From Tribonema minus (lineage: Eukaryota; Sar; Xanthophyceae; Tribonematales; Tribonemataceae), in assembly GCA_017506865.1 (NCBI GenBank), contig JAFCMP010000533.1:434001-498000 (forward strand): a stretch of 64,000 bases of DNA, written 5' to 3'. The notes beneath the pieces were generated by a model. That model saw nothing but the letters and a program-made list of their open reading frames with translations, had not been told where the DNA came from and made no database searches. How positions within the stretch are numbered: position 1 is the stretch's first letter; every line of letters starts with the position of its first letter. Below are positions 17,530-25,227 of this stretch, piece after piece. The position numbers and the translations under genes were made by a program.

Positions 17530-17686
17530 CGTCGTGTGAATCACTCGTGGCAGCAGCAGCGCTCCGCGGACGCGCATCAGCATGGCTCAGAAAGCGCCTT
17601 GAACGCCTCGCCCACGAGTCACTCGTCGTGTGAGTCACTCGTCGTGTGAGTCACTCATGGCAGCAGCAGCGCTCCGTGGCACCGCA
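17530..17686 (-). repeat. Copy of the terminal exon end downstream of the adenine deaminase stop
   Basis: The block 17533-17625 repeats 17648-17740 at high identity (GGCAGCAGCAGCGCTCCG, then CGCATCAGCA.GGCTC, then CGCCTTGAAC.CCTCG). The repeated part covers the last ~50 coding bases of exon 6, the stop and its 3' flank. A short GTCACTCGTCGTGTGA repeat joins the two units. This is the terminal-exon version of the exon-edge copies seen in the introns. Confidence 0.75.
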
Positions 17687-23600: not shown

Positions 23601-25227
23601 GCGTTGCAAAGCGAGAACGTGCGCTCGCCGGTCCGCGTGCACAGCAAAGTGAAGAACATCTCTCCGCACGCTGCATAATCTCATGTTCTGAAAGCGCGTC
23701 TACCTCGCTCCAGAGCGATAAAAGGCGTGTGAACTGCGCAATAAAGCGAAAACGTGTGCAGCAGTGCTCTATGAGCGCCTGCGGATCGAAGACCATCTCT
23801 GCGTATGCTGTGCGCTCTCACGTCTTAGAAGCGTGTGTCTTTTCAAACAATAAAATCAGCGTGAAAATGTGCGCAGCAGCGCTCACCGGTCCGTGTGCGC
23901 CTGTGGATCGAAGACCATCTCCGGACGCTGCACGATATCATGCTCAGCGCATTTTACCAGTAAAAGGACAAAAAAATGTGTGCAGCAGTGCTCACCGGTC
24001 CGTGTGCGCCTGCGGATCGAAGAAGATTTCGGTGCGTCGCACGTTTTCTTCCTTGCACTTCAGAAGGTATGCCCAGGCCAGGTCGTGGAAGTCCTGCGCC
24101 GTGAGGAGCACTGACATGCCGCTGAAGTACAGGTCCAGAAAATCCTGGAGATTTTCGAACTGGGGGGAGGGGGGGGGGGGGAGGGAGGGGGGGGGATAGG
24201 GACAAGGATGTGAGAGCGGTCACAACTAGACTTATAGAGCACTCATACGCAAGCAAGTAATTGACCAGGAGGCACTAGAACTGGGGGAGGGGTGGATGTG
24301 AGAGCGAGCACGAGGCACTGATACACAAGCGAGCGATGGGCCAAGCGGCACCAGAACTCCCAAATAAAGGCATGGATGGCGGGGAGCAGACAGGAGAAGT
24401 GCCAAGCAGATAATGCTTTCAGTTTTGTCAGCCGTGTCAGGAGCAGGTGCTGACGCGCAGGCGAAGTTGTGCTCGCAAGTGTTGTGTGCTCACATGTGTT
24501 GAAAGGCCACAGGATGCAGTGTGAGCAAGTGGTGACAGAGATGGAGACAGAGACACCAGCTTGCTGGGGCCCAGTGGGGCAGCTGCTGTCTGAACGAACG
24601 AACTGTGCGCAACAGAAGCTGAAGTGTTGCCACTCTGCTGTTGCCATACAGCACAGCTGCTTGCCGTGCCAGCAGCTGTGCGCAGATGCTCAGTGCTCAG
24701 CTGTATCGTCAAGAAGGCTAGAAGCGCTGCCAACTGTCAGTTGAAGAAGTTGGGCATGGATGCAAGGCCAAGGCGTCACTTGTGTACGAGCCAGCCTGCA
24801 ACAAATCTGCAGGCCTTGAGGCCTTGGTTGCAGTCTTGCCTTGTCCGCAGTTTCAGCACTCCTAGAGCATGAAGGCTGAAAGTTATTGATATCTGCCAAT
24901 TCCGCCTTTGAAGTTCTGAATGCATTGGGTACCGAACCCAGGGCTCATGGATGTAGACCCATGTGTGAGAGTCAGTTCGGCAAGAGATACGTTGCGCATA
25001 TTGTCTGATACTTCAAAGATGTGGATGAATAATGACTGTATTGCAGCTGCCAGTTGAAACTCAAAACTGCTACAGCGCTGTTGAAGTTGAGGACTGACCT
25101 GGTAAGCTTCCTTCAGTGTCTCCAGGGTGGGGTACTTGAGCTTTACTTTGTTGCGCTCCGCAAGCTGAAATATGTGCTTCGGCTCTAGCGTCCCCTCTAT
25201 GTGAACATGAAGTTCGGCCTGACCCAT
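17687..25227 (-). CDS. AAH1: Adenine deaminase (Aah1-type, adenosine/AMP deaminase superfamily)
   Basis: Six exons read high to low: 25227-25099, 24159-23996, 22581-22292, 20968-20890, 19403-19211, 17845-17687. They total 1014 bases and give 337 residues, the usual length. Deaminase motifs appear in order: the metal ligands HVH in [26 protein letters not shown] and [10 protein letters not shown], typical of Aah1; [29 protein letters not shown] with the catalytic Glu; [15 protein letters not shown] with a metal His; PLSNIKL; and [11 protein letters not shown] with the catalytic Asp pair. [10 protein letters not shown] favours adenine over adenosine as substrate; the enzyme would turn adenine into hypoxanthine for purine salvage in the cytosol. 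Phases match at all five junctions. The start ATG at 25227 lies right at AELHVH, so a small upstream exon is possible (CAG precedes GCCGAA). The introns are packed with decayed copies of exon edges. Confidence 0.93.
18820..19210 (-). repeat. Array of 3' exon-edge copies of deaminase exon 5, mixed with TTAGGG repeats
   Basis: The last ~17 coding bases of exon 5 plus its donor (on +, ACCTGGTTGATGTAGCC) recur at about 18836, 18878, 18923, 18958, 19005, 19094-19125 (decayed) and 19155; the true site is 19209. Units are 35-55 bp apart and separated by GGGTTAG-like repeats. The 19005 copy is longer: it still encodes an [12 protein letters not shown] end (on the - strand) with Thr for Ala. Confidence 0.85.
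19415..19745 (-). repeat. 5' exon-edge copies of deaminase exon 5
   Basis: A near-complete copy of the first ~110 bases of exon 5 lies at about 19450-19573 ([11 protein letters not shown], then [15 protein letters not shown]). It has one in-frame TAG where the true exon has GAG. A shorter, more decayed third copy lies near 19690-19745. These sit upstream of the true acceptor at 19404, in intron 4. Confidence 0.85.
19905..20740 (-). repeat. Five decayed copies of deaminase exon 4 end with donor site
   Basis: Copies of the exon 4 end ([16 protein letters not shown]) have their exon-intron junctions at 20676, 20530, 20358, 20104 and 19917; the true one is 20890. Spacing is 146-254 bp. Each keeps a GTGC donor. 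The 20676 copy still reads as [16 protein letters not shown]; the others have substitutions or stops. Between them lie C-runs and CA-rich tracts. Confidence 0.88.
21146..21290 (+). repeat. Dispersed repeat, copy 1
   Basis: About 145 bp related to 40565-40705 (+) and 25335-25470 (-). Shared blocks include ATGGTGGCACTGTTTGACTC, GGTGGAAGGCATTCAATTTG and AGCTCTACGATCTTTTGATT. It lies inside the third intron of the adenine deaminase gene. Confidence 0.8.
21690..22291 (-). repeat. 3' exon-edge copies of deaminase exon 3 with telomere-like repeats
   Basis: Copies of the exon 3 end (on +, CTCACCGGCGTGCACGACGC and variants, then CGCAGGCC) have junctions at 22089, 21870 and 21709; the true one is 22292. 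In each copy a CCCTAA array sits where the exon sequence would continue, followed by an AACACCGCTGCG-like piece of the same exon. Confidence 0.75.
22690..23300 (-). repeat. 5' exon-edge copies of deaminase exon 3
   Basis: Copies of the acceptor and first ~40-60 bases of exon 3 (on +, CCATGACGGCGGATAGGGGG then ACGCCGCTGCC) have junctions at about 22758, 22954 and 23269; the true one is 22581. Poly-G runs follow each, equal to the C-rich tract of the acceptor on the coding strand. The last copy still reads [15 protein letters not shown]. Confidence 0.82.
23515..23990 (-). repeat. 3' exon-edge copies of deaminase exon 2
   Basis: Four copies of the exon 2 end (FDPQAHTDR plus donor) have junctions near 23887, 23764, 23639 and 23527; the true one is 23996. 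The period is 109-125 bp. The nearest copy reads [18 protein letters not shown], an open but diverged version of [17 protein letters not shown]. Confidence 0.85.
24160..24365 (-). repeat. 5' flank copies of deaminase exon 2
   Basis: Poly-G rich sequence next to the exon 2 acceptor (24160-24195) is followed by two decayed repeats of the acceptor neighbourhood (AGAACTGGGGGAGG at about 24278, AGAACTCCC at about 24353). Both share GGATGTGAGAGCG and ACACAAGCGAGC-like sequence. Confidence 0.6.

Follow-up and report, generated by a model that had tools for sequence, protein, structure and literature searches.

A single tandem duplication across an intron-exon boundary created a new, spliced intron in a potato RdRp gene, according to the account of that case given in PMC4974935. 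A more general model of intron birth likewise invokes tandem duplication of gene segments carrying splice signals; in the parts of the literature that set it out (PMC3443670, PMC4974935), the unit is a purely exonic segment containing AGGT, whose duplication creates an intron with the copies at its opposite ends. The mutation itself has been studied in mouse and human cells, where, in the portion of PMC8355091 dealing with the mechanism, small tandem duplications form at staggered breaks through fill-in by Pol alpha-primase/CST followed by end joining, so that sequence at offset nicks is duplicated directly and no repeats are needed. Introners, as summarised in PMC9860276, are another source of altered intron content, inserting whole introns in many genes of a genome.

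The introns of Tribonema minus described here resemble each of these systems in part. Whereas the potato case, as described, is a single event yielding a new spliced intron, we find what appear to be many events, at both donor and acceptor edges, lengthening introns that already exist. Unlike the unit of the AGGT model as outlined in the sources above, the unit here would span an existing junction, and the copies lie beside their source. The duplications reported in the relevant part of PMC8355091 are short (<100 bp, with 43-bp overhangs) whereas spacings in Tribonema minus are usually 100-230 bp, and a link to those enzymes would be by analogy. Finally, in contrast to introners as PMC9860276 characterises them, the copies are local and derive from the host gene's own junction.

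What we rate as new is therefore a known kind of event, but one that is recurrent, acts at donor and acceptor edges and lengthens introns. A literature search, mostly at the level of listings, found no report of introns growing repeatedly by junction duplication, nor of the introns of this genome. Intron lengthening without transposons is, to our knowledge, poorly documented.

The deaminase gene and its origin

The window, by which we mean the whole 64,000-nt stretch of DNA analysed, is part of a 676,998-bp contig (C530) of the 158-Mb assembly. On its minus strand, at 17687-25227, lies a six-exon adenosine/adenine deaminase gene (ADA; Table 1), all five introns of which are GT-AG. An earlier note on this DNA had held that the true exons form a complete enzyme, and they do: spliced together they encode 337 amino acids identical to the public Tribonema minus protein JKP88DRAFT_258920. 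NCBIfam assigns the protein to adenosine deaminase (NF006850, TIGR01430), and the motifs HVHIEG, HAGE, IDHG and NSDDP are all present.

A homologue search was carried out in which the best 120 of 8,000 scored candidates were compared. The other 119 relatives among the matches listed are 63-67% identical to the algal protein, and all those with a named organism are bacterial, mostly Burkholderiales/Aquabacterium; none of these 119 has a gap beside any of the ADA intron positions. A tree built from the 120 deaminases listed gives the algal protein a long branch (0.67), and its placement is weakly supported (0.585). Since the organism-named nearest relatives are all bacterial, the gene probably came from bacteria, and the five introns would probably be later gains.

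Table 1. Exons, introns and exon-edge copies of the Tribonema minus ADA gene, in window coordinates
Feature	Position	Strand	Details
Exon 1	25099-25227	-	Start codon at 25227; exact splicing to public protein; 3′ edge without copy
Intron 1	24160-25098	-	939 bp, GT-AG; exon-edge copies searched, none found
Exon 2	23996-24159	-	Splicing to public protein
Intron 2	22582-23995	-	1414 bp; exon 2 3′-edge copies in 5′ part, exon 3 5′-edge copies in 3′ part
Exon 3	22292-22581	-	Splicing to public protein
Intron 3	20969-22291	-	1323 bp, GT-AG
Exon 4	20890-20968	-	79 nt; splicing to public protein
Intron 4	19404-20889	-	1486 bp, GT-AG
Exon 5	19211-19403	-	Splicing to public protein
Intron 5	17846-19210	-	1365 bp, GT-AG
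Exon 6	17687-17845	-	Includes stop codon; splicing to public protein
Exon 2 3′-edge copy	23887-23914	-	In intron 2; 96% over 28 nt, then GTGAGC donor
Exon 2 3′-edge region, further copy	23511-23575	-	Another inside 23748-23815
Exon 3 5′-edge copy	22701-22758	-	In intron 2; 86% over 58 nt, GGCAG acceptor before it
Exon 3 5′-edge second copy	22907-22954	-	83% over 48 nt; weaker third at ~23236-23297
Exon 3 3′-edge copy	22091-22138	-	83%, GTGAGG donor; fainter resemblance near 21853-21894 and 21703-21735
Exon 4 3′-edge copy	20676-20735	-	In intron 4; 90% over 60 nt, then GTGCGT donor
Exon 4 3′-edge copy	20530-20562	-	In intron 4; 85%
Exon 4 3′-edge copy	20358-20395	-	82%; fainter copies near 20100-20131 and 19912-19949
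Exon 5 5′-edge copy	19456-19571	-	In intron 4; 114 aligned nt at 89.5%, TTGCAG acceptor before it
Exon 5 3′-edge copy	19008-19087	-	In intron 5; 80 nt at 94%, GT donor
Exon 5 3′-edge shorter copies	between 18812 and 19171	-	In intron 5, amid TTAGGG-like sequence
Exon 6 stop end and 3′ flank, outward copy	17523-17610	-	In 3′ flank; 88.6% to 17633-17720

Exon-edge copies in the deaminase introns

Self-comparison of the ADA region, which the earlier note had called for, reveals same-strand repeats that tie exon edges to the adjoining introns. Each edge was then assessed by comparing a 60-nt exon-edge query with its own intron, shuffles and the reverse complement serving as controls. Six of the ten intron-facing edges have a copy (exon 2 3′, exon 3 5′ and 3′, exon 4 3′, exon 5 5′ and 3′), with scores of 51-100 against shuffle maxima of 23-29 (z 14 to 41). 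Reverse-complement copies were found at none of the ten, the top score being 22. With queries of this length no copy was detected in the adjoining intron for exon 1 3′, exon 2 5′, exon 4 5′ or exon 6 5′; the first 60 nt of exon 4, an exon of just 79 nt, match the copies in intron 4, not intron 3. Many copies extend from inside the exon through the splice site and past it, and junction-linked repeats account for 2,101 of the 6,527 ADA intron bases (32%).

The observation from which this work started, that exon edges recur in the same orientation outward in the ADA introns, is thus borne out. Its reach was overstated: both edges are copied for exons 3 and 5 only, not for nearly every exon, and the copying into adjoining introns proposed for exons 2-6 holds for exons 2, 3, 4 and 5, exon 6 having only its stop end copied, into the 3′ flank. 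To call the introns 'built from' such copies is too strong at 32% of their bases, and the splice site is included in most copies, although not in every one.

Other repeats are also present in the window. A dispersed element of ~155 bp is found at 21135-21279 in ADA intron 3, at 25340-25479 (inverted, upstream of exon 1) and at about 40561-40704; genome-wide there are 2,284 first-look candidates for it, 40 of which were scored. Across 45.3 kb of introns there are 27 TTAGGG/CCCTAA tracts, of which ADA (introns 3-5) has 11; none occurs in 13.8 kb of exons, 26 occur in 140 kb of random loci and 11 in the 55 kb of the window outside ADA. They alternate in ADA intron 5 with short copies of the exon 5 end. 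At 57046-57531, two weak kinase matches with overlapping profile coordinates (E 0.038 and 0.013, below the cut-off) lie inside a 132-bp direct repeat (91%), possibly the trace of another exon-edge duplication.

Recurrence in other genes

Two further gene families were sampled. The Cpn60/CCT profile PF00118 has 56 matches genome-wide, from which ten loci (L019-L028) were taken; these cover 55 of the 56, the missing one being on contig C51, and four matches were counted as copies, not exons. Loci L019, L020 and L021 were picked first for their visible copies and the remaining loci were added later. By profile coordinates, frame and splice signals, 31 of the 41 junctions between neighbouring matches could be resolved, none of them in L020. 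The kinesin sample comprised three loci from 137 matches, selected because consecutive matches formed runs there and without regard to copies, and 12 of its 13 junctions were resolved. Fourteen random loci, not well annotated, served only as background. Ab initio gene prediction, with 204 kb of training sequence, produced too many short exons and took copies for exons, so it was dropped and family matches were used instead; a Pfam search of 20 single ORFs from the window and loci yielded too few domains for use.

Same-strand copies are present at 17 of 62 Cpn60/CCT edges (31 introns): 8/12 in L019, 4/10 in L021, 3/8 in L024, 1/10 in L023 and 1/2 in L027, with none at the 20 edges of L022 (0/14), L025, L026 and L028 (0/2 each). 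The three kinesin loci have copies at 15 of 24 edges, which brings the figure for ADA, Cpn60 and kinesin together to 38 of 96; a reversed copy was found at none of the 96. Of 54 tests on exons at least 120 nt long whose two introns were both resolved, 27 found the edge copied in the intron it faces and none found it in the intron beyond the opposite end of the exon. When exon-edge queries were run against other genes' introns, a score of 32 was reached in 0.29% of comparisons on average (72 edges). Within exons, windows 60-120 nt from the edge were copied in 5 of 76 cases and those more than 120 nt away in none of 49 (first 36 introns).

Separately, partial-exon duplicates appear as overlapping Cpn60 or kinesin profile matches on contigs C51, C135, C5, C246, C511 and C479, apparently lying outward of the fuller match.

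Anatomy of the copies and a proposed mechanism

An iterative search over the 48 introns of the ADA, Cpn60 and kinesin sets catalogued 75 copies (9, 40 and 26, respectively) at 39 edges in 27 of the introns. Copies reach 37-81 nt into the exon (central 80%). The nearest one lies at a median distance of 184 bp at 20 donor edges and 168 bp at 19 acceptor edges, and arrays contain up to seven detected copies per edge, spaced by a median of 159 bp with 75% of spacings within 100-230. Regular spacing of this kind, along with the uniformly direct orientation, is the pattern of tandem duplication. Copies also keep to the side of their source, 65 of the 75 lying in the expected half of the intron. Of the 45,317 intron bases sampled, 11,721 (25.9%) belong to junction-linked repeats and 2,464 (5.4%) to repeats confined to introns. 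Median length is 1227 for introns with copies and 657 for those without (n 27 and 21, p=6e-4).

We are fairly confident that these patterns reflect small tandem duplications across splice junctions, the detached copy decaying inside the intron, and this would hold with or without a true preference for junctions. A duplication spanning a splice junction would take in roughly 40-80 nt at the edge of the exon, the splice site and ~100 nt of intron. Two splice sites would result, and normal mRNA would come only from the site that adjoins the complete exon; the exon-joined copy would stay coding, while the other, now wholly intronic, would be spliced out and decay. Each event would lengthen the intron by one unit, and repeated events would build arrays. 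The outward placement of the copies is not independent evidence for this scheme, because a copy cut off from the exon body could not remain coding in any case. As for the type of mutation, the direct orientation and size of the units, and the fact that they are not dispersed, would suit tandem duplication during break repair, for example by fill-in and end joining of staggered breaks.

Is the splice junction a preferred site?

Junction duplications are real and common, and they belong to a wider process generating local direct repeats, in introns and elsewhere. A same-strand local copy exists for 361 of 2,920 60-mers from the 14 random loci and the remainder of the window, with 46 in reverse, and 148 of 632 intron-interior 60-mers have a local direct copy. 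The periods of the background repeats (89 pairs, median 175) are similar to those of junction copies. This raises the question of whether junctions are special at all. Tandem duplication might strike any non-coding DNA, exon edges standing out since the exon is constant and its copies stay recognisable. Such an explanation shares its core mechanism with the scheme above, overlaps with it in probability and has, we judge, slightly less than an even chance of being right. The breadth and the periods of the background repeats favour it, as do the frequencies of copied windows in the sample without ADA: 32/86 at exon edges, 14/86 for adjoining intron 60-mers and 101/453 in intron interiors. Since the windows on the intron side of junctions do not exceed the interior, much of what is seen at exon edges is a matter of detection, and part of the prominence of junctions is due to the better visibility of exon-side copies.

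Simulations argue the other way. In a uniform null, tandem duplications were placed evenly over introns and exon edges, with exons selected and everything else decaying; five series were run, with 6, 6, 6, 6 and 8 parameter sets (the last with four uniform and four with junction hot spots), all being rough models with author-chosen parameters. For 48 introns, uniform simulations gave an edge/interior ratio of 0.46-0.62 (maximum 0.98 among 36 replicates), against 1.69 observed and 1.63 without ADA, and a junction-linked share of arrays of 0.29-0.44, against 0.70 and 0.67, respectively. Letting exon-derived copies decay at half rate raised the ratio to 0.76-0.94 (maximum 1.33 of 18). At quarter rate it became 1.16-1.58, and 5 of 18 replicates reached at least 1.63, in sets whose interior rate lay below that observed. 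The junction-linked share never exceeded 0.56 under slowed decay or, indeed, in any of 72 replicates, compared with the 0.67 seen without ADA; in an earlier, smaller set the observed share was 0.63 and that in 30 replicates at most 0.58.

The profile across the junction (without ADA) is 0.372 at the exon edge, 0.163 for intron 0-60, 0.218 for intron 60-120, 0.223 in the interior and 0.059 for exon 60-120. Four uniform sets with one-sided decay produced 0.11-0.28 at the exon edge and 0.05-0.11 for intron 0-60. The nearest simulation is one with half of events at junctions, which differs in exon 60-120 (0.184 simulated), real copies reaching less far into exons.

The estimate of the junction excess without ADA comes from 43 introns at 12 loci and is uneven between loci. 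A bootstrap over genes places the edge/interior ratio at 0.98-2.36, and removal of five low-scoring splice assignments leaves 25/76 edges versus 100/410 interior windows. The earlier Cpn60 set gave a ratio of 1.25 but, without L019, its 25 introns show no excess (ratio 0.89, share 0.53) and fall within the simulated range (replicate share up to 0.58), as general duplication would have it.

Overall, an excess at junctions over uniform duplication probably remains, and a true preference is likely though not settled. The fullest version of the idea, in which splice junctions are themselves duplication hot spots in Tribonema minus and introns lengthen stepwise by junction copying, keeping fossils of earlier exon sequence, is tentative and its chances seem to us well short of even. 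If it were correct, transcription, splicing or chromatin might favour paired nicks at junctions; the spacing of copies is near nucleosome length. The proposal of the earlier note, junction duplication followed by decay, can thus be carried over to unrelated genes, but as one part of a wider duplication process and with a junction focus that partly reflects detection.

Decay of the copies and possible fossils of exon states

Single copies range from 0 to about 20% different from their exon. Differences amount to 7.4, 5.2 and 15.3% at codon positions 1, 2 and 3, and 53% of them would be synonymous, compared with 25% for random change. The third position of the copy mismatches at 64 of 114 sites where the exon has A/T and at 142 of 1234 where it has G/C. 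Since A/T-ending exon codons differ in the copy far more often than G/C-ending ones, the simplest reading is that the exon changed synonymously after duplication and that the copy retains the older third-codon base, while itself decaying at all positions.

Intron flanks were compared for 36 of 37 junction pairs, one being excluded for its weak anchor. For 20 copies the flanks resemble each other more closely than any of the random intron pieces used for comparison; in the other 16, the first 60 nt of flank lack clear kinship, as old copies would show. Mean identity is 90% in the exon part and 74% in the intron flank (aligned columns, with many gaps), and in several pairs the exon part outlasts the flank by more than simple one-sided decay predicts. 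In intron 4 of L019, the exon copy is 97% identical over 112 nt with a far more diverged flank, a mismatch for which gene conversion is a possible cause. More generally, intron tracts that turn over faster, gene conversion and a search bias towards well-preserved matches could each play a part.

The better preservation of some exon parts might also be taken to mean that the copies are functional, as alternative exon ends or decoy splice sites under selection. Splice dinucleotides are indeed mostly intact, with GT kept in 22/25 and AG in 31/33 copies (53/58 in total; 31/36 in the flank-comparison set). Nevertheless, their loss matches the general decay of the copies, put at 171/2,720 for codon positions 1-2, copy offsets modulo 3 have no frame preference (28/25/22), and the public ADA protein uses none of the ADA copies. 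Given loss at the general rate and indifference to frame, we see no sign in these comparisons that copies are used, nor that selection removes them, and we regard a functional role as improbable.

Less probable still is that the copies date from the birth of the introns through tandem duplication of an exonic AGGT segment. That mechanism is documented (PMC3443670, PMC4974935), and the ADA introns were probably gained, the organism-named relatives among the best 120 of 8,000 candidates being bacterial. However, it predicts the start of the downstream exon at the 5′ end of the intron and the end of the upstream exon at the 3′ end. The opposite layout is observed: the 5′ half holds 28 of 36 donor copies and the 3′ half 37 of 39 acceptor copies, on the side of their source.

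A source in mobile elements, introner-like or otherwise, that carried exon ends is hardly credible, even with the ~155-bp dispersed element in ADA intron 3, since the copies are close to their source, never reversed (0/96) and, at 0.29% matches in other genes' introns, nearly private to one intron; matches between introns fall in telomere-like stretches and do not form related families in many genes' introns, so that the distinction from transposon-like introners drawn in the earlier note stands. An assembly artefact is scarcely conceivable in view of the graded decay (0 to about 20%), the codon-position structure and the spread of loci over many contigs.

Implications for intron evolution

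For about a quarter of the intron DNA of the sampled genes a source can now be named, and steps of different age are visible. The intronic copies seem to hold earlier exon states, so that a single genome could suffice to polarise changes in an exon. Splicing, moreover, copes with decoy donors and acceptors that have stayed intact a few hundred bases away from the genuine sites, which makes Tribonema minus a natural test of splice-site choice.
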